Below, piece after piece: positions 10,663-35,022 of a stretch of 46,705 nt of DNA. Origin of the DNA: Nanobdellota archaeon. Lineage in GTDB: Archaea > Nanobdellota > Nanobdellia > Parvarchaeales > Parvarchaeaceae. Both the position numbers and the translations under genes were made by a program. Numbering within the stretch: the first letter of the stretch is position 1; the number at the start of each line of letters is the position of its first letter. The notes under the pieces are model-generated. The model saw nothing but the letters and a program-made list of their open reading frames with translations. It was not told the DNA's origin and did no database searches. The stretch lies in assembly GCA_021811735.1 (NCBI GenBank), contig JAJZNK010000035.1:1-46705 (forward strand), in the 5' to 3' direction.

Positions 10663-10674
10663 TAACATATGTTA
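10663..10674. promoter_or_regulatory. 12-bp palindrome over the start codon of MNT gene 1
   Basis: TAACATATGTTA is a perfect 12-base palindrome that contains the ATG of the nucleotidyltransferase gene (10669-10671), about 29 bases after its TATA box and therefore at the probable transcription start. Its position fits a repressor site used for autoregulation by the encoded antitoxin-like protein. A 12-base palindrome in A+T-rich DNA can also occur by chance. Confidence 0.35.
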
Positions 10675-11193
10675 AAGATAATTAACAATATGAAGCCATT
10701 CTTTGAGGATTGTTATGAACGAATAAGTGTTAGGAAATATTCGAAACTCATAAAAGTATCCCCACCGACTGCGTCCAAAATACTGAAGAAATACGAAAAA
10801 GAGGGATTACTGGAAGAATCGCAGTTTGAGAGATATCTTTTTTTCAATGCAAGGCGAAGTAACAAAGACTTTTTGGATCTTTCTAGGTTGTATTGGAGAT
10901 ATCAATTGTCGGAAATATTGGCGCTCATAGAAAAACGTTTGGTAACTGAGCCCGCAGTGGTGCTTTTTGGATCTCTATCCAAAGCAGAAGTCAAAAAAAC
11001 ATCCGATATTGACATAGCAATCGTGGGAACTAAAAAAAATGCCACTGTAATTAGCGCGGCCGAATTATCCGAATTCGAAAAAAGGCTTGGAAGAAAGATA
11101 GAAATATTTGAATTTGAATCATTGCCGAATTTAGCAGAGTTGCCTCTTTTTAAAGCAGTATTAAATGGGTATATACTTATGAACACCTTATGA
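10669..11193 (+). CDS. Winged-helix/MNT nucleotidyltransferase (pair 1)
   Basis: The 174-residue protein joins a winged-helix DNA-binding N-terminus (about 12-60) to a minimal nucleotidyltransferase domain. The core motif is G101-S102-x10-D113-x-D115 (GSLSKAEVKKTSDIDIAIVG), the metal/NTP site of MNT enzymes. In characterised MntA-HepT pairs, MNT is the antitoxin that AMPylates the HEPN toxin; this role is taken from the family. The HEPN gene follows after 4 bases, so the two are co-translated. The attached DNA-binding domain and the palindromes around the start suggest the protein represses its own operon. Confidence 0.85.
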   Translation: MLKIINNMKPFFEDCYERISVRKYSKLIKVSPPTASKILKKYEKEGLLEESQFERYLFFNARRSNKDFLDLSRLYWRYQLSEILALIEKRLVTEPAVVLFGSLSKAEVKKTSDIDIAIVGTKKNATVISAAELSEFEKRLGRKIEIFEFESLPNLAELPLFKAVLNGYILMNTL

Positions 11194-11197
11194 GGTT

Positions 11198-11602
11198 ATG
11201 GACTGGAAAAACTGCCTGGATTCAGCAATTGCAAAGAAAATAACTCCTGATACAGAACTAATAAAATCTCTGTTAATCTCCTCGAGTAACAAGCTTGAAT
11301 CTGCCAACTTGTTAAAAACCAATGAAGTGACGGCAAGCTCAAAGTTTTCTCTGGCTTATGATGCACTAAGAGAAATATTGGAAGCCGTGGCGATAAAAGA
11401 AGGATATAAAATATACAATCATGAGTGTTATGCGTGTTTTCTGGGCGAGGAATTCGGTAAAAAAGATGAGGCTACAGAATTTGATTATTTTCGTAGAATA
11501 AGGAATAAGATAAATTATTATGGCGAGAACCTATCGGTTGAAGACATCTCTTCGTTAATAAAAAGAATAGAAAACCTGATTGAAACAATAAAGCACTTTT
11601 AG
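11198..11602 (+). CDS. HEPN-domain protein, putative toxin (pair 1)
   Basis: This 134-residue all-helical protein fits the HEPN domain. The conserved central helix (SLAYDALREILEAVAI, 51-66) is followed by a C-terminal motif RNKINYY at 102-108. HEPN RNases of HepT type carry R-x4-6-H; here the His position holds Tyr107, so RNase activity by the standard mechanism is uncertain. GAGG lies just before the ATG, and the gene is 4 bases behind its MNT partner. As in known MNT-HEPN modules it should act in a complex with the partner. The toxin label is by context, not by motif. Confidence 0.75.
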   Translation: MDWKNCLDSAIAKKITPDTELIKSLLISSSNKLESANLLKTNEVTASSKFSLAYDALREILEAVAIKEGYKIYNHECYACFLGEEFGKKDEATEFDYFRRIRNKINYYGENLSVEDISSLIKRIENLIETIKHF

Positions 11603-12079: not shown

Positions 12080-13477
12080 TTAATGCCGTTTATTGGATAA
12101 TCTTTTGTTGTGACCAGATACAACATCCGCATTTCTATAGTTGTTGGCGGTTATATACAGCATCAAAACCATCGCGGCTGTCGTCAACGCGACTCCTGCT
12201 GCCTCTACATACCATGATAAAGTTACAAGGTACACAAGCACTCCATCGGCGCTGAGAAGTATCCCTGCGAAAAAAAGATATGCGCTAAAATTCACATATC
12301 TGGAATCACGCTTTATGAACAGCAAAAAGCCAAGTAGCAGTCCAGCTAGGACAGGCATGAGGAAAAATGCAAACACGAGATGCGCATTCATATAAGCCAT
12401 ATCGTAGATGTATCCTGCTCCACCGTTTGGAGGTGCTCCCGGACTGCCGAAGCCATAATAGACCTCGTTGAATTCTATTATGTATCCGATGCCTATCATA
12501 ACAAACACGGTGGCTACCCATACAAGAAGTTCGGCTACTTGGATCAGTTTAATGCTCTTTTTTCTGGAAAGAACGAAGTAAATACCTACTACAGATATCA
12601 ACGCGCCTACTCCTATCAATCCCGTCAGGAAATCATCAAAGGCAAGGCCGTTCATTCCTCCAGATCCCGATGTGAACAATGTAGGTATGGAATATGTGCT
12701 GAATGAGGATATTATGTATATATAAGTCATTCCCACCGTGCCTATCATTGAAACGACCATGCCGATGTTTACCAGCCTTCTTTTCCCCTTGGTTAAATTT
12801 TCGTACCCGAAGCCAATAAGCGCCAAAGCGACTATCCCTCCCATGATGGCAGGAAGCATTTCGTGAGAATGTGATGTCAGAAGATTTACTAGAAAGGATG
12901 ATGTTCCTCCAATGGAATTCATGAATGAATTAAACAACGGAATCGTGCCGAAACCGTAAAGATAGCCATATTCATATATCATCCCCATAATTGTTGCGGC
13001 TCCTGCAGAAACAGTGGAGAACACTACGAGTAGATAAGCACCCCATATCTTTTTGAATCTTGCCTTGTCCCTGAAGGGGACTACAAGCAACCCTAAAAAG
13101 AAAAGAAAGGCAATGCCTAGCATCCATACGTCTCTCGCACCTTGGATTATATAATCCGCACCCTGTGTCGCCACGGGGTAGAATAAAACAAGACCTACAA
13201 TGTTTAAAATTAACAAGGGAACTGTGCTGACGCTTATGATTCTTGAGATCTTTTTGGGCAGCTTCAGGACAAAAGAGGCATAGATTATAAGTAAGAGAGC
13301 TAAGGGAATCATTACAGTGTGATAATAATTTATTGTATCGCGTGTAAAATCTCCTAGCTTGAACAAAGAAACCTCTGGAATCAGGGGACTTACTGCCACC
13401 ATAACAACGATGTAAAAGATAAGTATGAAAATGTTGAACTTTTCTCCCGCTAAAACCTTGATGCCTGTACTTGCCAT
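12080..13477 (-). CDS. 12-helix membrane protein resembling heme-copper oxidase subunit I
   Basis: The 465 residues form about twelve hydrophobic helices: near 12-32, 52-72, 80-102, 116-134, 145-168, 195-224, 236-258, 283-304, 312-335, 364-388, 398-420 and 425-447. This is the number found in heme-copper oxidase subunit I. The few membrane histidines fall where that family has ligands: H53 in helix 2 (YYHTVMIP; compare the family's H-x-x-x-M), H203 and H205 in helix 6 (SHSHEMLP; compare HPEVY), and H366 in helix 10 (MNAHLVFAF; compare AHFHY). The helix-7 His pair that binds CuB is absent, so it is not a normal oxidase. The next gene upstream is heme O synthase. Function is unproven: it may be a degenerate relative or an unrelated b-type heme protein. 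Confidence 0.5.
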   Translation of the reverse strand: MASTGIKVLAGEKFNIFILIFYIVVMVAVSPLIPEVSLFKLGDFTRDTINYYHTVMIPLALLLIIYASFVLKLPKKISRIISVSTVPLLILNIVGLVLFYPVATQGADYIIQGARDVWMLGIAFLFFLGLLVVPFRDKARFKKIWGAYLLVVFSTVSAGAATIMGMIYEYGYLYGFGTIPLFNSFMNSIGGTSSFLVNLLTSHSHEMLPAIMGGIVALALIGFGYENLTKGKRRLVNIGMVVSMIGTVGMTYIYIISSFSTYSIPTLFTSGSGGMNGLAFDDFLTGLIGVGALISVVGIYFVLSRKKSIKLIQVAELLVWVATVFVMIGIGYIIEFNEVYYGFGSPGAPPNGGAGYIYDMAYMNAHLVFAFFLMPVLAGLLLGFLLFIKRDSRYVNFSAYLFFAGILLSADGVLVYLVTLSWYVEAAGVALTTAAMVLMLYITANNYRNADVVSGHNKRLSNKRH

Positions 13478-14463: not shown

Positions 14464-14850
14464 TTACTCCACGGATAATTTGGACTTTACCCAGTCCATA
14501 AATCTCTTGGACCTGACCAACAACAGATTCGCTTCTTTTTCGCTGCTAGATGTTTCTGTATACCCAAATTCGTTCCTTTGATCGAGTGCCCCAGCCAATA
14601 TATCTTTTTTGGATTCGTTATTTGATGCTGCTTGTACATGTAATTGTATGGCTTCATTGTGATTCTTACTGGCTCGTCTTCCAAGCATCGAAATACAAAA
14701 CGCATCGTTAGCAAGTATTATGGACTGTGCTGCATCGAATGCCGCCGCGTTTAACCTGCCTTTCTGATAGTTTTCCAGCGCGGAGTAATAGAATTCCTCT
14801 GATTTTCTTATAAATTTATCGGCTTCGGCTTTTCTCACTTCTCTTGCCAT
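14464..14850 (-). CDS. HEPN-domain protein, putative toxin (pair 2)
   Basis: The 128 residues form a HEPN-like helical bundle. An N-terminal helix carries KSEEFYYSALENY (16-28), GRLNAAAFDAAQSIILANDAF follows (31-51), and the C-terminal motif is QRNEFGY (91-97). As in pair 1, the position of the catalytic His of R-x4-6-H is filled by Tyr (R92...Y97). The start overlaps the 3' end of the nucleotidyltransferase gene by 16 bases, so the two are translationally coupled. The inward-facing SIILANDA segment is typical of HEPN proteins of DPANN and other archaea. The toxin role is inferred from the partner. Confidence 0.75.
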   Translation of the reverse strand: MAREVRKAEADKFIRKSEEFYYSALENYQKGRLNAAAFDAAQSIILANDAFCISMLGRRASKNHNEAIQLHVQAASNNESKKDILAGALDQRNEFGYTETSSSEKEANLLLVRSKRFMDWVKSKLSVE

Positions 14851-15425
14851 ACTAATGCCTCCAGATCTTTTCCGTATAGTAATTTATATCCTGCAAAGAT
14901 ATTTATGGTAAATTCATTCCCTGCTTTGGCATCGGTAATAAAGCGTTTAATATTCATCGCAATTGGAGATATGTGAATGCCGGATTTTACAGTGATTGTG
15001 CTAGCAATATCAGATAACTTGTCTCTGTCGAGTGGCTTTTCATATAACACCAATAAATCTATATCGCTGCCTATTTTCAGACCTTTGACCGCTGAACCAA
15101 AAAGTACTATGCTCACAGGGTTTAGCTTTTTGCATTCCGATACAACTTCTTTTTCTATTCTATCCAAAAGTCTATTTTCCTCGTTGAATGCTGTCTTTAC
15201 ACTGTCTGCCACAAAATTTGATGAAAATGAATAAAGCATTGTATTTCCAATGGATTTCTCATACAGCATACCTTTATCACGAAGGTCCTTTAAACACTCG
15301 TTTGTCTGAGATTTGGAACTGTTCAGAATTCTTGAAATCTCAGAGCCGCTCAGAGATGTATTTCTACGCACCAATAATCCGATGATCCTAGTCTTTAATC
15401 TGGAATCGAATATTTGCTCAAACAT
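14835..15425 (-). CDS. Winged-helix/MNT nucleotidyltransferase (pair 2)
   Basis: The protein has 196 residues. The N-terminal winged helix (about 8-68) includes a recognition-helix region SGSEISRILNSSKSQTNECL (26-45), followed by an MNT domain with G110-S111-x9-D121-x-D123. Domain order matches pair 1, but the sequence is clearly different, so the two are not a recent duplication. A TATA box (GATATAAAAG on this strand, centre about 15452) lies 27 bases before the ATG, suggesting a leaderless mRNA. An inverted repeat sits further upstream at 15477-15494. By family it is the antitoxin partner of the HEPN protein downstream. Confidence 0.85.
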   Translation of the reverse strand: MFEQIFDSRLKTRIIGLLVRRNTSLSGSEISRILNSSKSQTNECLKDLRDKGMLYEKSIGNTMLYSFSSNFVADSVKTAFNEENRLLDRIEKEVVSECKKLNPVSIVLFGSAVKGLKIGSDIDLLVLYEKPLDRDKLSDIASTITVKSGIHISPIAMNIKRFITDAKAGNEFTINIFAGYKLLYGKDLEALVWQEK

Positions 15426-17975: not shown

Positions 17976-18374
17976 TTATTTAAGAATTATGGCTTTTTTT
18001 ACAATCCTTATGAATTCTTTTGCATTGCCTAAAAGTATTAGGGTGTCTTTTTTGCTGATATCTGCTAGAATATTATAAGAACTAACTTGTCTGCTGTCCA
18101 TAGCTTTACTAAGATATTTTGAAAATTTACTATCTAGCTTACCTGTCTTTACGTAGTACCTACTAAATTCGGATATGACACTTCTATGAGTTTTTGGTGG
18201 TTTTGCCCCCGCATTTACTATGGCACCGTTGGCACAGTAAAACATTGCATAATATGCTAGAGACGTAGCAACTCTGAACCTAGACTCATTGTAATTTGAA
18301 TATGCTCCCTCTAGCGTATCATCTGCCAGTTCTAAATAACTTTTAATCAGTTTCTCCGAATACCCATTTTCCAT
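17976..18374 (-). CDS. HEPN-domain protein, putative toxin (pair 3)
   Basis: From the ATG at 18374 the product has 132 residues; an ATG at 18407 is possible but deepens the overlap with the MNT gene to 65 bases. It is a typical HEPN bundle: KLIKSYLELADDTLEGAYSN (8-27), then SLAYYAMFYCANGAI (38-52), the THRSVISEFSRYYVKTGKL region, and the C-terminal SRQVSSY motif with R95 and Y100. Again Tyr replaces the His of R-x4-6-H. It overlaps its MNT partner by 32 bases. Antitoxin-first gene order and overlap match other MNT-HEPN modules; toxicity is inferred. Confidence 0.78.
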   Translation of the reverse strand: MENGYSEKLIKSYLELADDTLEGAYSNYNESRFRVATSLAYYAMFYCANGAIVNAGAKPPKTHRSVISEFSRYYVKTGKLDSKFSKYLSKAMDSRQVSSYNILADISKKDTLILLGNAKEFIRIVKKAIILK

Positions 18375-18717
18375 ATAGTTTAACACCATCTGTTTTAACA
18401 TTGTCAATAAACGGCACTTTAAGCAAAACCTGTGCCGCCAGCTCTTTCAGCGTAATAAAAAACATTGAGATAAGAAATGAGAAATCGTTTTCTAACTCAA
18501 AATCCGTGGCAATTGTATAGATAGCATCCTTGAACGCCGGATTGTGCGCATAAGGTGTCACTATAAATAGATCTATATCACTACTTTTTTTAGCTTCTCC
18601 TCTCGAGACCGACCCATAAAGGAGTATAGAATCTATTTTATTCCCTAACCTAAAAGTTACTCTCTTTACAAATTCCTCTGCCATAGCTCGATATTCGGCA
18701 CTTATCGCCTCTGCCAT
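18343..18717 (-). CDS. MNT-type nucleotidyltransferase (pair 3)
   Basis: The 124-residue protein is a minimal nucleotidyltransferase with G35-S36-x10-D47-x-D49 (YGSVSRGEAKKSSDIDLFIV). Unlike pairs 1 and 2 it has no winged-helix domain; residues 1-28 form only one helix. It is the likely antitoxin of the overlapping HEPN protein. A TTTAAATC box on its strand (about 18740) stands upstream at a promoter-like distance. The absence of a DNA-binding domain means regulation differs from the other two pairs or is missing. Confidence 0.83.
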   Translation of the reverse strand: MAEAISAEYRAMAEEFVKRVTFRLGNKIDSILLYGSVSRGEAKKSSDIDLFIVTPYAHNPAFKDAIYTIATDFELENDFSFLISMFFITLKELAAQVLLKVPFIDNVKTDGVKLYGKWVFGETD

Positions 18718-24808: not shown

Positions 24809-26332
24809 ATGGAAACAGACGGCGTTGAGATCATAGACCATTATGATGTTGTATCCGATGGGATAAGTGCAAAGGTCAGGATTTTACGGGTTCCATCCAA
24901 GTTTACGATGTCCTACCACATCACCACTCCTGTTATTGACCAAAGCATGAATGCGGTCCTCACGGAGATAAGGGCCCAGCTTATAAAGGAGAACCCTCTT
25001 AAAATCCAGCAGCTTTCCCAGTCTACATCTGAACAGCTCAAAAGGGAATTTCTTGATATAGTCCAAAAGAAACTCCAGACTATAATACCTGGAATGCAGG
25101 AGAAAGCATACATAGAGCTTTCTGCCACTCTTCTCCATGAAATGTTCGGTCTCGGTATTGTAGAAGTCCTAGATATGGACGCAAATCTCGAGGAGATAGT
25201 CATAAACGATTCAAGAAATCCTATAATGGTTTATCATATAAAATACGGCTGGCTGGAAACCAACATACGGATAGAAAGCGAATCGAAGATAGAGTCGTAT
25301 TCCCAGCAGATTGCAAGAAAGGTCGGAAGGCAGATAACCAATCTTAATCCTCTTCTTGACGCACAGCTTCCCAACGGAGACAGGGTAAACGCTACGCTCT
25401 ATCCAATTTCAACACACGGCAACACTCTTGACATAAGAAAGTTCAGGGCCGAGCCTTGGACGATAATAGACTTTCTGAAAAGAAAAACCGTGTCAAAGGA
25501 GCTTGTCTCATTCATATGGCAGGCGATGCAGTACGAACTTTCCTTCCTTGTGACTGGAGGTACTGCGGCCGGTAAAACGTCGATGCTGAATGTTTTCCTT
25601 CCCTTTATCCCACCGAATCAGAGGATAATAACGATAGAAGATACGAACGAGTTGGTCCTTCCCAAATACATGCACTGGGTGCCAATGCTCACCAGGCAGA
25701 AGAACGCTGAAGGGAAGGGAGAAGTTACGATGCTTGACCTTCTGCTTAATTCCTTAAGAATGAGGCCGGACAGACTTGTAGTCGGAGAGATAAGAAAAAA
25801 GGAGGACGCACAGACGTTGTTTGAGGCGATGATGACGGGACATTCAGTATACGCGACGATGCACGCTGAAACCGCTCAGCAGGTGGTAAAGAGGCTTATT
25901 TCCGAACCGATAGACCTTCCAGAGATTGAGGTCTCCACCCTTGACCTTGTGATAACGTCCTTTAGGCAGAGAAGAAGCGGAGTAAGAAGGGTACTGGAAC
26001 TGGCGGAAATCGTTGAAAGACAGATAAGCGGAATGACAGAGCTGAAGACGAACAACCTTTTCGAATGGAAACCTAGAACCGACACTATCGAAAGGACGAT
26101 AAACACGTCGCAGAAAATCTCAAACAAGCTGGCACTTTATTCCGGTCTTACAAGTGAAGAGATGGTTACGGACCTGAAAGAAAAGGAACTGGTCCTGCAG
26201 TGGATGATTGACAGCAACATGGACAACGTCAACACGATTGGACTGACTGCCAGCAACTATTATGCGAACCGCGAAAAGCTAATGCAGCTTATCAAGGACA
26301 AGGGAGATCCTTCTCAACTCGAAACTATCTGA
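24809..26332 (+). CDS. Type IV pilus/TadA-like secretion ATPase
   Basis: A cytoplasmic hexameric ATPase of the archaeal GspE/TadA/ArlI group that powers pilus or archaellum assembly. In 507 residues the N-terminal domain (1-215) includes NLNPLLDAQLPNGDRVNAT. Walker A GGTAAGKT is at 250-257, the Asp box near 275-285 (TIEDTNELVLP), Walker B DRLVVGEIR at 321-329 and the His box MTGHSVYATMHA at 342-353. It starts a three-gene operon; the next ATG is one base after its stop. No pilin gene is in the operon. Which filament it builds cannot be told from sequence alone. Confidence 0.93.
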   Translation: METDGVEIIDHYDVVSDGISAKVRILRVPSKFTMSYHITTPVIDQSMNAVLTEIRAQLIKENPLKIQQLSQSTSEQLKREFLDIVQKKLQTIIPGMQEKAYIELSATLLHEMFGLGIVEVLDMDANLEEIVINDSRNPIMVYHIKYGWLETNIRIESESKIESYSQQIARKVGRQITNLNPLLDAQLPNGDRVNATLYPISTHGNTLDIRKFRAEPWTIIDFLKRKTVSKELVSFIWQAMQYELSFLVTGGTAAGKTSMLNVFLPFIPPNQRIITIEDTNELVLPKYMHWVPMLTRQKNAEGKGEVTMLDLLLNSLRMRPDRLVVGEIRKKEDAQTLFEAMMTGHSVYATMHAETAQQVVKRLISEPIDLPEIEVSTLDLVITSFRQRRSGVRRVLELAEIVERQISGMTELKTNNLFEWKPRTDTIERTINTSQKISNKLALYSGLTSEEMVTDLKEKELVLQWMIDSNMDNVNTIGLTASNYYANREKLMQLIKDKGDPSQLETI

Positions 26333-26333
26333 A

Positions 26334-27230
26334 ATGGAAGTAAAAATACCTAGTGTAATGATTTCGCCGGAGAAAGCCATTTTCTTCGGAAAGAAAGTGA
26401 AAAGACTGGCGTTTAATCTGAAGGGTGTCATACCCAGCCTGAAACAGGACCTTATGCAGGCGTCAATGGATATAGACTACATAGATTATATCGCTGCGGG
26501 AATAATCGTCACGTTTGTTCTTGTAGGGCTCATGGCCGGCATCTCCGCACTGATCATCCTGATTGCCATAAAGAAGGACTTGTTGACGCTAAAGATAGAG
26601 GCTATTTTGCCTATGCTGATCCTCGTGGTTCCAGCAGTGTATTTTTTGTATTTCCTCAACTTTCCGAAGCTGCAGGCTGTAAAGAGAAACAAGCTTATGG
26701 AAGAGCAGGTAGTATTTGCAACGAGAGAGATAATGATAAAGGTAGGTTCGGGAGTACCTATATTCAACGCGCTGCTGGACGTTGCGAATGGGGATTACGG
26801 CGTGGTCTCGGACGAATTCAAGCTCGCTATAGAGGAAATAGAATCTGGTGTGCCTCAGGAAACTGCCTTGGATCACCTAGCAAGAAGGGTTCCTTCACAG
26901 TCACTTAGAAGGGCAATAGACATAATGCTGAATGCCATAAAATCGGGAAGCGATGTTGCAGGCACCCTTTCGCTGATAAATGACATGCTTATCAAAAAAC
27001 AGCAGTCAGACATGAAATCATATGCAGGCGAGCTTACGCCGATGTCGATGGCGTACATGCTGATGTCTGTAGTCATTCCCAGTCTTGGAATGTCTGTATT
27101 TGTTATCCTTGGATCACTGGCACATTTCAACACTGTAGCTATAATATATATTATTCCGCCGTTCCTGCTGATGTTCCAGATATTTTTCATGGGAATGGTT
27201 GGTAACAGGAGGCCTTCGATAGGAGTATGA
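26334..27230 (+). CDS. TadC/ArlJ-like membrane platform protein, first half
   Basis: A 298-residue T2SF-domain protein with two hydrophobic helices at about 50-75 and 88-112, then a cytoplasmic four-helix T2SF bundle (ATREIMIKVGSGVPIFNALLDV near 129, later RRAIDIMLNAIKSGSD) and two C-terminal helices. Archaeal ArlJ-type proteins of about 550 residues hold two such units; here each unit is a separate gene, as in bacterial TadB/TadC. It recruits the ATPase to the membrane. The start is one base after the ATPase stop and the end overlaps the next gene by 4 bases. Confidence 0.85.
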   Translation: MEVKIPSVMISPEKAIFFGKKVKRLAFNLKGVIPSLKQDLMQASMDIDYIDYIAAGIIVTFVLVGLMAGISALIILIAIKKDLLTLKIEAILPMLILVVPAVYFLYFLNFPKLQAVKRNKLMEEQVVFATREIMIKVGSGVPIFNALLDVANGDYGVVSDEFKLAIEEIESGVPQETALDHLARRVPSQSLRRAIDIMLNAIKSGSDVAGTLSLINDMLIKKQQSDMKSYAGELTPMSMAYMLMSVVIPSLGMSVFVILGSLAHFNTVAIIYIIPPFLLMFQIFFMGMVGNRRPSIGV

Positions 27231-28270
27231 AAAAGACTGTTGAAGCTGAGAGTATACGCGTTCTGCTCGCACGTCTTCTTCCCAAAAAGCTTTCTGTAGG
27301 GATGAAGGAAGAATTTATTTATGCCCAGATGGGAGGAGAGAACCTAGACCAGACTATAGGTTCAATATTGATTGCCCTCATCGCAATATCGGCAATCGGC
27401 GCACTGCTGGTTTTCCACTTCCTTAATTCCCCACTCTACGGACTCGGCGCCGTGCTCGGGATTTTCTTTGGTGGACTGCTTCTTATAAGGTCTCTTCTTT
27501 CGATGATAGCGGACTCTGTCGCTATGAAAATAGAGAAAGTGCTGCCGGATATGCTCCTTTTGATGGCGGCAAACTTAAGGGCCGGAATGATCCCTGAAAA
27601 CTCATTCATAGCCTCAATGAAACCTGAGTTCGGTAAACTGAACGTCCTGCTTAACAAGGCTGCGATAGAGACGCAGGCTGGAAAATCGTTTTCAGAAGCG
27701 ATTCTGGAAATGAATGACATGACCAATTCGGAATTCTTCAGGGACAGCGTAAGGATAATTTCTGAGGGAATAAGATCAGGAGCCGAACTTCACCTTATAC
27801 TTGAGAATCTCGCAAGCAATCTCCTTCAGAATGAAAGTATAAGGAACGATATGAGAGCACAGGTAAAGAGCTATTCGCTGTTCATATTCATAGCCTCAAC
27901 GCTCGCGGGCCCATTGCTTTACGGAGTATCTTCATTCCTTATCGGGATACTTGACCAGGTAGGTACGACTACCTCGGGGTCTACGTCGGCAAGCAACTTG
28001 CCTTCGGGTTCGCTTGGGCTGTTCTCGGGATTCACCCTGCCGCATATATCGATCACGCTTATCTTGGCTATCTCCGTTATAAACGTGATAATAACCACTG
28101 CGTCCAGTGCACTGTTGGGAGGAGTCCTGAACACCGGGAAGGCTAAAAATGGGATAAAAAATATCCCAGTGTATACACTTATAGGATTAGGAGTGTTCTT
28201 CATGGTAAGGATAGGTGTTTCGATGTTCTTTGCGAGTTCATCGCTTACTGCTGGAAGCTCGTCGTTCTAA
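27227..28270 (+). CDS. TadC/ArlJ-like membrane platform protein, second half
   Basis: A 347-residue T2SF-domain protein with helices near 42-65, 68-92, 215-240, 265-290 and 310-335. The T2SF bundle in between includes LPDMLLLMAANLRAGMIPENSF (105-126) and a second half with SVRIISEGIRSGAELHLILENL. It probably forms a heterodimer with the preceding protein as the inner-membrane platform. Translation is coupled by ATGA. The stop codon directly abuts tRNA-Val, so the tRNA may be processed from the same transcript. Confidence 0.85.
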   Translation: MKKTVEAESIRVLLARLLPKKLSVGMKEEFIYAQMGGENLDQTIGSILIALIAISAIGALLVFHFLNSPLYGLGAVLGIFFGGLLLIRSLLSMIADSVAMKIEKVLPDMLLLMAANLRAGMIPENSFIASMKPEFGKLNVLLNKAAIETQAGKSFSEAILEMNDMTNSEFFRDSVRIISEGIRSGAELHLILENLASNLLQNESIRNDMRAQVKSYSLFIFIASTLAGPLLYGVSSFLIGILDQVGTTTSGSTSASNLPSGSLGLFSGFTLPHISITLILAISVINVIITTASSALLGGVLNTGKAKNGIKNIPVYTLIGLGVFFMVRIGVSMFFASSSLTAGSSSF

Positions 28271-32277: not shown

Positions 32278-32616
32278 CTATTGCTCATTGTTTTCTTGTT
32301 CGTCCTGATCTTCCTTCTCTTCGCTCAGGTTTATCTCGTTTTCGACCGTGTTATCAGGTGGCATTTCCGTGCCGACCGAATCTTCGGTTGCAAATATCGT
32401 AAATTTCCTTTTGACCCGCTTGCTAGTGGTCTTTTTCACGTACTTTGGCATTCCTTTGTAGAGTCTCTGTCCACGTATTTTCTTAGCGCAATCTGGGCAG
32501 TAATAAGCTTTTATACCGTCTCTAAAAAGATAAACTGCTCTGTCCCTTCTCGTTATCTGACCACATGAGGCGCACCTAACGTTGCTTGTTCTTCCCCTTC
32601 TTATGTTCTTTCCCAT
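32278..32616 (-). CDS. Ribosomal protein S26e-like zinc-ribbon protein
   Basis: The 112 residues start MGKNIRRGRTSNVRCASCGQITRRDRAV, matching the S26e pattern of a basic N-terminus, CxxC and a basic helix. The second CxxC (YYCPDC) follows at 40-43, so the zinc ligands are C15, C18, C40 and C43. It is shorter between the pairs than crenarchaeal S26e and has an added acidic tail (SEEKEDQDEQENNEQ). Its first 41 bases overlap the 3' end of cydB in another frame. TATATATAAG at about 32637-32648, inside cydB, lies 27 bases before the ATG and gives it its own promoter. Another zinc-ribbon protein is the alternative. Confidence 0.6.
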   Translation of the reverse strand: MGKNIRRGRTSNVRCASCGQITRRDRAVYLFRDGIKAYYCPDCAKKIRGQRLYKGMPKYVKKTTSKRVKRKFTIFATEDSVGTEMPPDNTVENEINLSEEKEDQDEQENNEQ

Positions 32617-33610
32617 TCTCTTTATTACTATTAGGCATTATATATAAGTTTGCTATCTTTGTTTCCTCAAATGAGCTGTCAGTGTATCGATTTGAGTAAT
32701 CCATGCCTGCATCGGGCCGTTTATACATGTAAAGGAAGAAAATCAACATCGCAGTCAGAAGCAGCCCTCCGACTATTGTGACTGCTAGAGACGCCGAAGA
32801 TACTGCAGAATTGTTCAGAAATGAGTAAAGAGAACGCGTTCCAAAAATCCTTCCATAGTTAAGAATGTTTATGGAAAGGACTGAGAGAAAGATCAACACA
32901 AATATCGGTTCGCGTCTGGATTTTCCGGTTAGAAAATAAAGCAACGATGTAAACGCGATTGCCACGGCAATAATGTAAGTCACATAGTTTACAATCATGC
33001 CGAGGGCACTCATCGAAATTATGAAAAGTGCTAGCCCTATGACAGTCATGAGAGGGGAAAGACCCTTGAATTTTTCGAGCCTGAAAAACGGAAAGGCGAG
33101 ACCAAAAACGATGAGAAGCAGCCCGACTATGAAACCTAAAGAATAATAATTTGAAACGAACGCGGATATGGAAAAAGAAGTGAGCGCCGAGTTTGTGCCC
33201 AATCCTGTTATCAGTGAAAGAAAGATTATAATTAGGACTAGCAAGATTGCAAAGCTTGCAATTGAGTAGGTTCTCGCGAGCAAAAGCTGGCTTATCTTTG
33301 AATCTTTCCACACATATTCGGAGAAAACCAAAAAAACGTTCCTCGCTATGAACAGGAAGGTGGCAAGGAGTATTGGAAACACGTACATGCTGTCTATGCT
33401 TGGAAAAACAGATGGATACAGTACTTCTGTGTTGACCACGAAAAAGACCGCAAACGTCCCTATTACTCCCCAAACCGGATCGAAATATTTCTTGACTGAC
33501 GGGAGGCTTTTCCTGTCATACATTATGGAAAGTGAGGACATAGCTTCTGTAATCAAGAACGTGAATAAAACGGCAAGGATTACGTAGTTCATCGTTATGT
33601 ATGTATTCAT
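32576..33610 (-). CDS. cydB: Cytochrome bd oxidase subunit II
   Basis: The partner of CydA in quinol oxidation by oxygen. The 344 residues have about nine hydrophobic helices and a lysine-rich cytoplasmic tail. Similarity to bacterial CydB is low by eye, but residues such as the N-terminal YVILAVLFTFLITEAMSS, the position behind cydA and the 4-base coupling (33607-33610) support the call. The last 41 bases overlap the S26e-like gene, and the tail NGKEHKKGKNKQR is largely dictated by that overlap. It is much more diverged than CydA, as is usual for archaeal subunit II. Confidence 0.78.
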   Translation of the reverse strand: MNTYITMNYVILAVLFTFLITEAMSSLSIMYDRKSLPSVKKYFDPVWGVIGTFAVFFVVNTEVLYPSVFPSIDSMYVFPILLATFLFIARNVFLVFSEYVWKDSKISQLLLARTYSIASFAILLVLIIIFLSLITGLGTNSALTSFSISAFVSNYYSLGFIVGLLLIVFGLAFPFFRLEKFKGLSPLMTVIGLALFIISMSALGMIVNYVTYIIAVAIAFTSLLYFLTGKSRREPIFVLIFLSVLSINILNYGRIFGTRSLYSFLNNSAVSSASLAVTIVGGLLLTAMLIFFLYMYKRPDAGMDYSNRYTDSSFEETKIANLYIMPNSNKENGKEHKKGKNKQR

Positions 33611-35022
33611 GCATTACCACCAAGCTCTTTGTTTAGGTCCCTCTTCCCGAGGACTTTCATAACGAAGAAGATTGTCAGAGGAATCACTGCGATGTAAAAT
33701 AATATCATAGCTATTCCTATCGGGACCACTGTTGGTGAAGTGTTGGCGGCAGCGGAAACGGTCATTACATTATATATTATCCAAGGCTGTCTTCCGACCT
33801 CATCAGTCACCCATCCATCCTCAAGCAAAAAGGCGGACAACGCCCCTACTGCAATCAGGATTTTCAAGACGAGGGGATTATCGAATGGATCCGAGAATAT
33901 TTTTTTTGAAAGGATTTTTCCGATTGTGACATTTGATGAAAGCCTCTGTTTTATCCCTCTCGTATTAATAATCCATAGCATAAGGAAAATCACCATAATG
34001 AAAGCTATCAGTATCCCTGTGCCGACCATAACATCGAAGGTGTTATGAACAACTGAGACTGGCGGCCATGTAGTTGGAGAATAAGCTGCGAGTGAATCAT
34101 TTGCTGCTATGACCCCGTTGAAGTTATACGTTGCAAGAAAACTCATGAGTCCTGGGATGTTTATTGCATCGATGGTTTTATTGTTTATGAGTAAACCACC
34201 TATAACCTCAGGAACGTGTGGGCCGGAAACAAAATTCATTTCGAGTGCTGCAAACTTTTCAGGCTGATAAACCATTAGAGAAGTTATCGATTGTATTCCT
34301 ATTATTACTGTCAGAACTATCGAGATTATGACTATAACTGCAGCGATTTTTGCGGATTTTTTATAGAACTCTCTCTGAATACCCTCAGTCTTAAGAAGTT
34401 TGTACGCAAAATAGGCGAGAAGAAACGCAGACCCGGCGAATATAGTCGAACCTACTACATGACCTATCTCTATCCAAGTTGTTGGTGTATTCAAAACCGC
34501 TAAGGGATTCACCCCTATTATTTTTCCTGTGCTCAGATAATATTGAATATTAAATCCGTTTGGAGTATTCATGAATGCATTGATCATCGTTATGAAAACT
34601 CCAGACATAACTGCGCCTATGGATATAAATACTGAAAGGATCCAATGCCTGATTCTATTTCTGAACCTGTTCCAGAAATATATATAAATTCCTAAGAGCA
34701 CCGCCTCGGTGAAGAATGCAAATACCTCCATATACAACGGGAGGATTCCCACCTGCCCCAGGACTGCTATGAATTTCGGCCAGAGCACGAAAAGTTCGAT
34801 AGCGACGACTACGCCACTCGCCGTTCCGACTGCAAAAAAGATTATCAACGCATTTGCAAGCCGCTTGGCCATCACGTCATACATTTTACTCTGGTATTTT
34901 ATGGAGAAGTATTCAGCGATGCTCATTATTATGGGGAGCGTCATTCCCATGGTAACCAGGAGGATATGCACTGCTAAAGAATAACCCATCAATCCAGCAT
35001 CGAAAATAACAAGATTAACCAT
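33607..35022 (-). CDS. cydA: Cytochrome bd oxidase subunit I
   Basis: CydA holds three hemes and the quinol site and reduces oxygen to water without pumping protons. The 471 residues have the conserved heme ligands H19 (heme b595 in current E. coli numbering), H188 and M332 (heme b558), and the glutamates E99 and E106. The Q-loop element QPEKFAALE is at 253-261 and the GRQPW signature at 410-414. The Q loop is of the short type. It is the first gene of the operon. This is direct evidence for aerobic respiration or oxygen detoxification. Confidence 0.95.
   Translation of the reverse strand: MVNLVIFDAGLMGYSLAVHILLVTMGMTLPIIMSIAEYFSIKYQSKMYDVMAKRLANALIIFFAVGTASGVVVAIELFVLWPKFIAVLGQVGILPLYMEVFAFFTEAVLLGIYIYFWNRFRNRIRHWILSVFISIGAVMSGVFITMINAFMNTPNGFNIQYYLSTGKIIGVNPLAVLNTPTTWIEIGHVVGSTIFAGSAFLLAYFAYKLLKTEGIQREFYKKSAKIAAVIVIISIVLTVIIGIQSITSLMVYQPEKFAALEMNFVSGPHVPEVIGGLLINNKTIDAINIPGLMSFLATYNFNGVIAANDSLAAYSPTTWPPVSVVHNTFDVMVGTGILIAFIMVIFLMLWIINTRGIKQRLSSNVTIGKILSKKIFSDPFDNPLVLKILIAVGALSAFLLEDGWVTDEVGRQPWIIYNVMTVSAAANTSPTVVPIGIAMILFYIAVIPLTIFFVMKVLGKRDLNKELGGNA

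Follow-up and report, generated by a model that had tools for sequence, protein, structure and literature searches.

A conserved archaeal membrane protein with a predicted heme-copper oxidase fold and no CuB signature, encoded beside a heme O synthase

Results

A 12-helix protein with histidines in helices II, VI and X

The window analyzed here, a stretch of 46,705 nucleotides that constitutes contig JAJZNK010000035.1 of a Nanobdellota archaeon (assembly GCA_021811735.1), encodes a 465-residue membrane protein that, judging from its predicted structure, is a remote representative of the heme-copper oxidase (HCO) fold without the CuB signature. Its predicted fold is HCO-like, its membrane histidines are conserved, and the family that it founds is linked to a particular heme O synthase paralogue (CtaB-2) and persists in genomes without COX1. 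Its usual neighbor is the enzyme that makes heme O, and on this ground we consider it a probable heme protein of a new kind, shared with Thermoplasma-type archaea. The gene pair and the codons of interest are as follows:

12080 to 13477, minus strand: 12-helix protein of predicted HCO fold, 465 aa, founder of the family described here (ORF with ATG start, AlphaFold2, Foldseek, 12 close homologues)
13319 to 13321, minus strand: codon of H53, helix II; invariant, 29/29 aligned members
12869 to 12871, minus strand: codon of H203, helix VI; invariant, 29/29 aligned members
12863 to 12865, minus strand: codon of H205, helix VI; 28/29, Tyr in L041
12704 to 12709, minus strand: codons of S257-S258, in helix VII close to its outer end; no variation among the 12 close homologues
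12380 to 12382, minus strand: codon of H366, helix X; 28/29, Gln in L049
13579 to 14442, minus strand: heme O synthase CtaB/CyoE, UbiA superfamily, 287 aa (PF01040 E=2.3e-40; TIGR01473 E=2.4e-58)

A preliminary description drawn from the sequence had counted about 12 hydrophobic helices, and the AlphaFold2 model bears this out, with membrane helices at residues 12-28 (I), 46-70 (II), 75-99 (III), 102-136 (IV), 138-174 (V), 192-223 (VI), 230-259 (VII), 280-302 (VIII), 307-336 (IX), 355-385 (X), 393-419 (XI) and 423-464 (XII). The protein contains no cysteine and six histidines in total, and because two of these (H456 and H465) belong to its low-confidence C-terminal tail, all membrane histidines lie in helix II (H53), VI (H203 and H205) or X (H366), exactly where that description had placed them. 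The local contexts likewise read as quoted there (H-x-x-M, HSHEMLP and NAHLVFAF), the numbered motifs being H53-x-x-M56, H203-S-H205-E-M-L-P and N364-A-H366-L-V-F. Helix VII is devoid of histidine, confirming that the helix-VII His-His of a CuB site is absent. Near the outer end of this helix stands S257-S258-x-x-T261, which is invariant in the 12 close homologues; going by its spacing, the Ser-Ser pair falls roughly where HCOs carry His-His.

Predicted models resemble heme-copper oxidases and NO reductases

The first AlphaFold2 model (12 alignment rows, pLDDT 76, pTM 0.82) returned HCOs and NO reductases (NORs) as all of its best 16 PDB matches, with 3mk7, a cbb3, at a TM of 0.60/0.60. For the second model (29 alignment rows, pLDDT 88, pTM 0.89), the best 11 PDB matches in Foldseek were again all HCO or NOR structures, and these included qNOR 6l1x, caa3 2yev, mitochondrial complex IV 7o37 (TM 0.61), cbb3 3mk7 and cNOR 4xyd, at probabilities of 0.96-1.00 and E-values of 0.014-0.22. 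Among the matches listed, TM values for non-HCO folds did not exceed about 0.35 by target and 0.26-0.27 by query. The structure search that the preliminary description had proposed thus set both models beside HCOs and NORs and not with an unrelated transporter family, and, as far as fold is concerned, the two predictions, together with the histidines in helices II, VI and X, uphold its suggestion that the protein is related to HCO subunit I in a degenerate or repurposed form.

Sequence comparisons behaved differently: the protein matched neither PF00115 nor a COX1 profile, and hhalign comparisons with ten Thermoplasmata COX1 and a qNOR, made with shallow profiles, gave no match (probability 0.2% or less). 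Since sequence-profile similarity to COX1 is missing, it is the shared predicted fold from which we infer common descent with the HCOs. In HCOs, the metal-ligand histidines occupy helices II, VI, VII and X, with the helix-X pair arranged as His-x-His, and the COX1 set examined here accordingly shows invariant H119, H292, H341, H342 (helix VII), H427 and H429. Because a helix-VII His-His, a helix-X His-x-His and a sequence match were each looked for and found absent, we do not file the protein as a heme-copper oxidase, although the models indicate that it likely works on an HCO scaffold.

Distribution and conservation of the family

Of 390 Thermoplasmatota genomes, 30 carry the family according to profile searches, in a few cases through weak remote matches or fragments, and alignment to 12 related loci in Thermoplasmata MAGs gave identities of 43-62% to the window protein. 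Neither the window protein nor these 12 homologues had a significant match in Pfam, NCBIfam or PDB sequences, no membrane-domain model of Pfam or NCBIfam matched the remote members, and we found no description of the family in the open-access literature. The preliminary description had named loss of the histidines among homologues as grounds for abandoning an oxidase-like reading. All four membrane histidines are instead invariant across the 12 close homologues, beyond what chance would give, and among 29 aligned members H53 and H203 never vary, whereas H205 and H366 are each replaced once (by Tyr and Gln, as listed above). Further invariant residues in this alignment include D281, D282, E335, E338 and D359. 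A remote clade (L051-L053), inspected by eye, keeps H53 and H203, reads HSY in helix VI and has no H366.

One remote relative, L051:409-2460 (minus strand, 684 aa), ends in a plastocyanin-like domain that bears a C-x3-C...G-M loop and might act as a fused electron donor, although the match of this C-terminal stretch to TIGR02656 (E=7e-4) lies far below the model's cut-off. Two ORFs precede the nearest homologue of the window protein, at L002:3687-5926 (plus strand): one encodes a UbiA-like prenyltransferase and the other, judged by eye, a UbiD-like protein. From their sequences, they hint at a link to quinone biosynthesis.

Within the phylum of the window genome, 371 sampled genomes yielded the family in the window genome alone, besides two marginal matches with E above 1e-5, and in the family tree the window protein groups with L002 and L006 of Thermoplasmata at a support of 100/100. 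The simplest reading is that the window genome, which belongs to another phylum than Thermoplasmatota, probably acquired the gene laterally. We also considered a misbinned Thermoplasmata contig. Comparison with G298 makes this unlikely: identity to the best G298 counterpart is 52% for the family protein and only 22-43% for the remaining matched window proteins. (We take G298 to be Thermoplasma acidophilum and G295 to be T. volcanium.)

No COX1 was found in the window genome, where cytochrome bd is the only classical terminal oxidase that we found. Its genes lie in the window, apart from the gene pair:

33607 to 35022, minus strand: CydA, cytochrome bd oxidase subunit I (PF01654 E=5.5e-95), 43% identical to a G298 protein
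32576 to 33610, minus strand: probable CydB, adjoining CydA, 27.5% identical to the ORF beside the CydA-like ORF of G298

Cytochrome bd of small acidophilic archaea (Micrarchaeota and Parvarchaeota) has been linked to Thermoplasmatales (PMC5864196), and the window genome probably falls within one of these two groups. Elsewhere in the window, positions 14464-15425 hold a gene pair resembling a nucleotidyltransferase and HEPN-type toxin-antitoxin module (with Pfam HEPN and NTase matches), similar pairs occur at 10669-11602 (Pfam NTase match) and, judged by eye, at 17976-18717, and a three-gene operon at 24809-28270 (plus strand) resembles, also by eye, an archaeal pilus or secretion ATPase with two membrane platform proteins.

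Association with the CtaB-2 paralogue of heme O synthase

The heme O synthase gene lies immediately upstream of the 12-helix gene and is co-directional with it. Its TIGR01473 score is slightly below the model's cut-off, and in the CtaB tree it groups with the CtaB-2 paralogue clade, although its very long branch makes its exact place there unsure. In that tree of 56 CtaB proteins, a 100/100 branch splits the COX1-linked proteins from all those linked to the family, whose side of the branch we call CtaB-2. By our own tally, 18 of 40 family-carrying genomes have a CtaB gene no more than about 2 kb from the family gene, in three gene orders (divergent, CtaB-first and CtaB-last); many family genes do not adjoin CtaB.

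The association extends to gene content. A single strong CtaB, in every case a CtaB-2, occurs in ten family genomes devoid of COX1, whereas genomes with both COX1 and a core family member have two strong CtaB in 24 of 26 cases (own tally). Across 380 Thermoplasmatota genomes, and ignoring relatedness, a strong CtaB is present in 29/29 family-positive versus 169/351 family-negative genomes (Fisher 2e-9), and two strong CtaB in 16/29 versus 14/351. G298 has CtaB-2 and the family and is devoid of both COX1 and a recognizable CtaA, which makes the family a natural user of heme O.

The correspondence is looser in other genomes. G196 has the family and no strong CtaB, and eight Ferroplasma/Acidiplasma-type genomes (L102-L109: G249, G264, G303, G315, G431, G434, G245 and G419) have CtaB-2 without the family, no member being found there even at a loose threshold (the single match, at E=0.19, contains stops). 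CtaB-2 must therefore have other uses, and a strict one-to-one pairing of the family with CtaB, which we had entertained, is weakened by these eight genomes. For the guess in the preliminary description that the protein binds heme b or o, the gain is one of context, namely a heme O synthase neighbor whose link to the family recurs across Thermoplasmatota.

Discussion

A proposed membrane cytochrome on a remote HCO fold

The reading that we favor, tentatively and with slightly less than even confidence, is a membrane cytochrome built on a remote HCO fold whose CuB half has been lost or was never present, and which would carry heme O from a dedicated CtaB-2. The neighboring CtaB-2 would supply this prenylated heme; H53 in helix II and H366 in helix X would serve as axial ligands of one low-spin heme in the position of HCO heme a/b, and H203 and H205 in helix VI would line the former binuclear pocket, where the outer-side carboxylates D281, D282, E335, E338 and D359 might join them in forming a second set of ligands or a redox site. 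We further infer that such a protein would bind heme O through this ligand pair and transfer electrons within acidophile respiratory chains, where its companions would probably be cytochrome bd, COX or cytochrome b-Rieske; the plastocyanin-like C-terminus of L051 would suit such a role. Against a cytochrome stand the missing sequence similarity to COX1 and qNOR, Foldseek E-values of only 0.01-0.2, and the single histidine of helix X. H366 is absent in L049 and L051-L053, which leaves part of the family without the proposed H53-H366 pair, and heme O or heme A could go to cytochrome b instead of to the family protein.

Alternative explanations

One of two main rivals, unlikely by our estimate, is an unorthodox heme A synthase, in which the HCO-fold protein would replace CtaA by oxidizing the heme O of CtaB-2 to heme A for use in COX and/or cytochrome b-Rieske ('ba'). 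CtaA is classically encoded next to a heme O synthase, and PF02628 (COX15-CtaA) was not found above its cut-off in family genomes except G203, G499, G531 and G539. Cuniculiplasmataceae are reported to have COX without CtaA (PMC8239418), and a heme a-containing 'ba' complex has been described in acidophilic archaea (PMC12808453, PMC10354927), including Ferroplasma (PMC10354927). The family and a type-0-like CtaA are also complementary in one pair of genomes: a family-less Ferroplasma-type genome, of which our CtaA survey covered 390 kb, encodes a likely type 0 CtaA in its COX cluster (L219:1011-1793, minus strand; 261 aa, EVWHR, four spaced His), whereas family-bearing G298, covered to 99.7%, yielded neither a CtaA-like ORF in a motif search nor a homologue of the L219 protein. 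A second protein, L110:6866-7648 (plus strand), likewise has 261 aa, 8-helix size, EVWHR and four spaced His and is likely a type 0 heme A synthase. PF02628 misses both of these type-0-like proteins, so most CtaA absences carry little weight. Moreover, G539 holds a family member beside CtaB-2 together with a PF02628 CtaA beside COX1, which contradicts mutual exclusion of canonical CtaA and the family, and G203, G499 and G531 hold remote relatives of the family plus CtaA. Genomes without COX1 would need some other user of heme A, and the window protein itself has neither a PF02628 match nor the E-x-x-H-R motif of CtaA; the idea of a triplicated CtaA four-helix bundle was abandoned after the fold searches pointed to HCOs.

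The same fold, the HxH of helix VI, the invariant outer-side acidic residues (D281, D282, E335 and E338) and the presence of qNOR and cNOR among the best fold matches would also fit an HCO-superfamily enzyme that actively reduces O2 or NO. In place of CuB, such an enzyme would have a rebuilt metal site, formed by H203, H205 and carboxylates and facing a high-spin heme O bound to H366. We regard this as improbable: helix X has one histidine, so H53 would be left without a low-spin heme partner; H205 is Tyr in L041 and L051-L053; and no cytochrome c, CuA subunit II or quinol-oxidizing partner was recognized by eye beside core family genes in the neighborhoods listed, the plastocyanin-like stretch of L051 apart. 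The other main rival, no less improbable, is a chaperone for heme O or a factor in oxidase assembly, which would take heme O from CtaB-2 and deliver it, using the histidines as transient ligands. Such a role would match the genomic pairing with CtaB-2, the scattered distribution of the family and its co-occurrence with COX1, cytochrome bd or both, but genomes without COX1 would require another client, and we know of no heme-delivery factor that has the HCO fold. Finally, an unrelated 12-helix transporter with coincidental histidines and a coincidentally HCO-like prediction would explain the lack of HCO sequence-profile similarity and the Foldseek E-values above 0.01. We consider it very improbable, given that the top matches of both models are all HCO or NOR, with a query TM roughly double that of the other folds listed, that histidines are conserved in helices II, VI and X, and that the heme O synthase neighbor recurs.

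Implications and comparison with known systems

To our knowledge, every protein in which the HCO scaffold has been recognized is an O2 or NO reductase that has a binuclear heme-metal site. We have moderate confidence in a broader proposition, that thermoacidophilic archaea have repurposed the HCO fold. The resulting protein would have no copper, be served by a heme O synthase of its own, and act either as a novel cytochrome or in a novel path to heme A; it would occur in cultivable Thermoplasma and have been transferred to an archaeon with a small genome in a different phylum. If so, a conserved branch of the HCO fold without a binuclear site would place the fold in another redox or heme-chemistry role, and would bear on the origin of the fold and on the user of heme O in Thermoplasma-type archaea that lack COX1. 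Were the protein a heme A synthase, it would explain COX-bearing archaea without a recognized enzyme of this kind. Relatives in cultured Thermoplasmatales make the family testable.

Among known systems, cytochrome bd subunit I (CydA, PF01654) is, like the protein proposed here, a membrane redox protein, and both are encoded in the same window and genome; however, CydA belongs to a separate Pfam family, and the 12-helix protein has no PF01654 match. CtaA/COX15 (PF02628, with type 0 in acidophiles) shares with the family a location beside a heme O synthase and histidines in even-numbered membrane helices, but CtaA has 4 or 8 helices arranged as four-helix bundles with an E-x-x-H-R motif, in contrast to 12 helices in an HCO-like predicted fold that lacks this motif. 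The closest comparison is with HCO subunit I and NorB (PF00115): the predicted 12-helix fold is alike (TM 0.61 to complex IV subunit I and 0.60 to cbb3 CcoN), histidines occur in helices II, VI and X, the helix II-to-X histidine spacing is 313 residues as against 308-310 in Thermoplasmata COX1, and a heme O synthase is the partner of both. Unlike HCOs, the family protein shows no detectable sequence similarity to them and no adjoining subunit II or III that we could see, and it has Ser-Ser approximately where HCOs have the helix-VII His-His, a single histidine (H366) in helix X in place of His-x-His (H427 and H429 of COX1), and a His-x-His of its own in helix VI.
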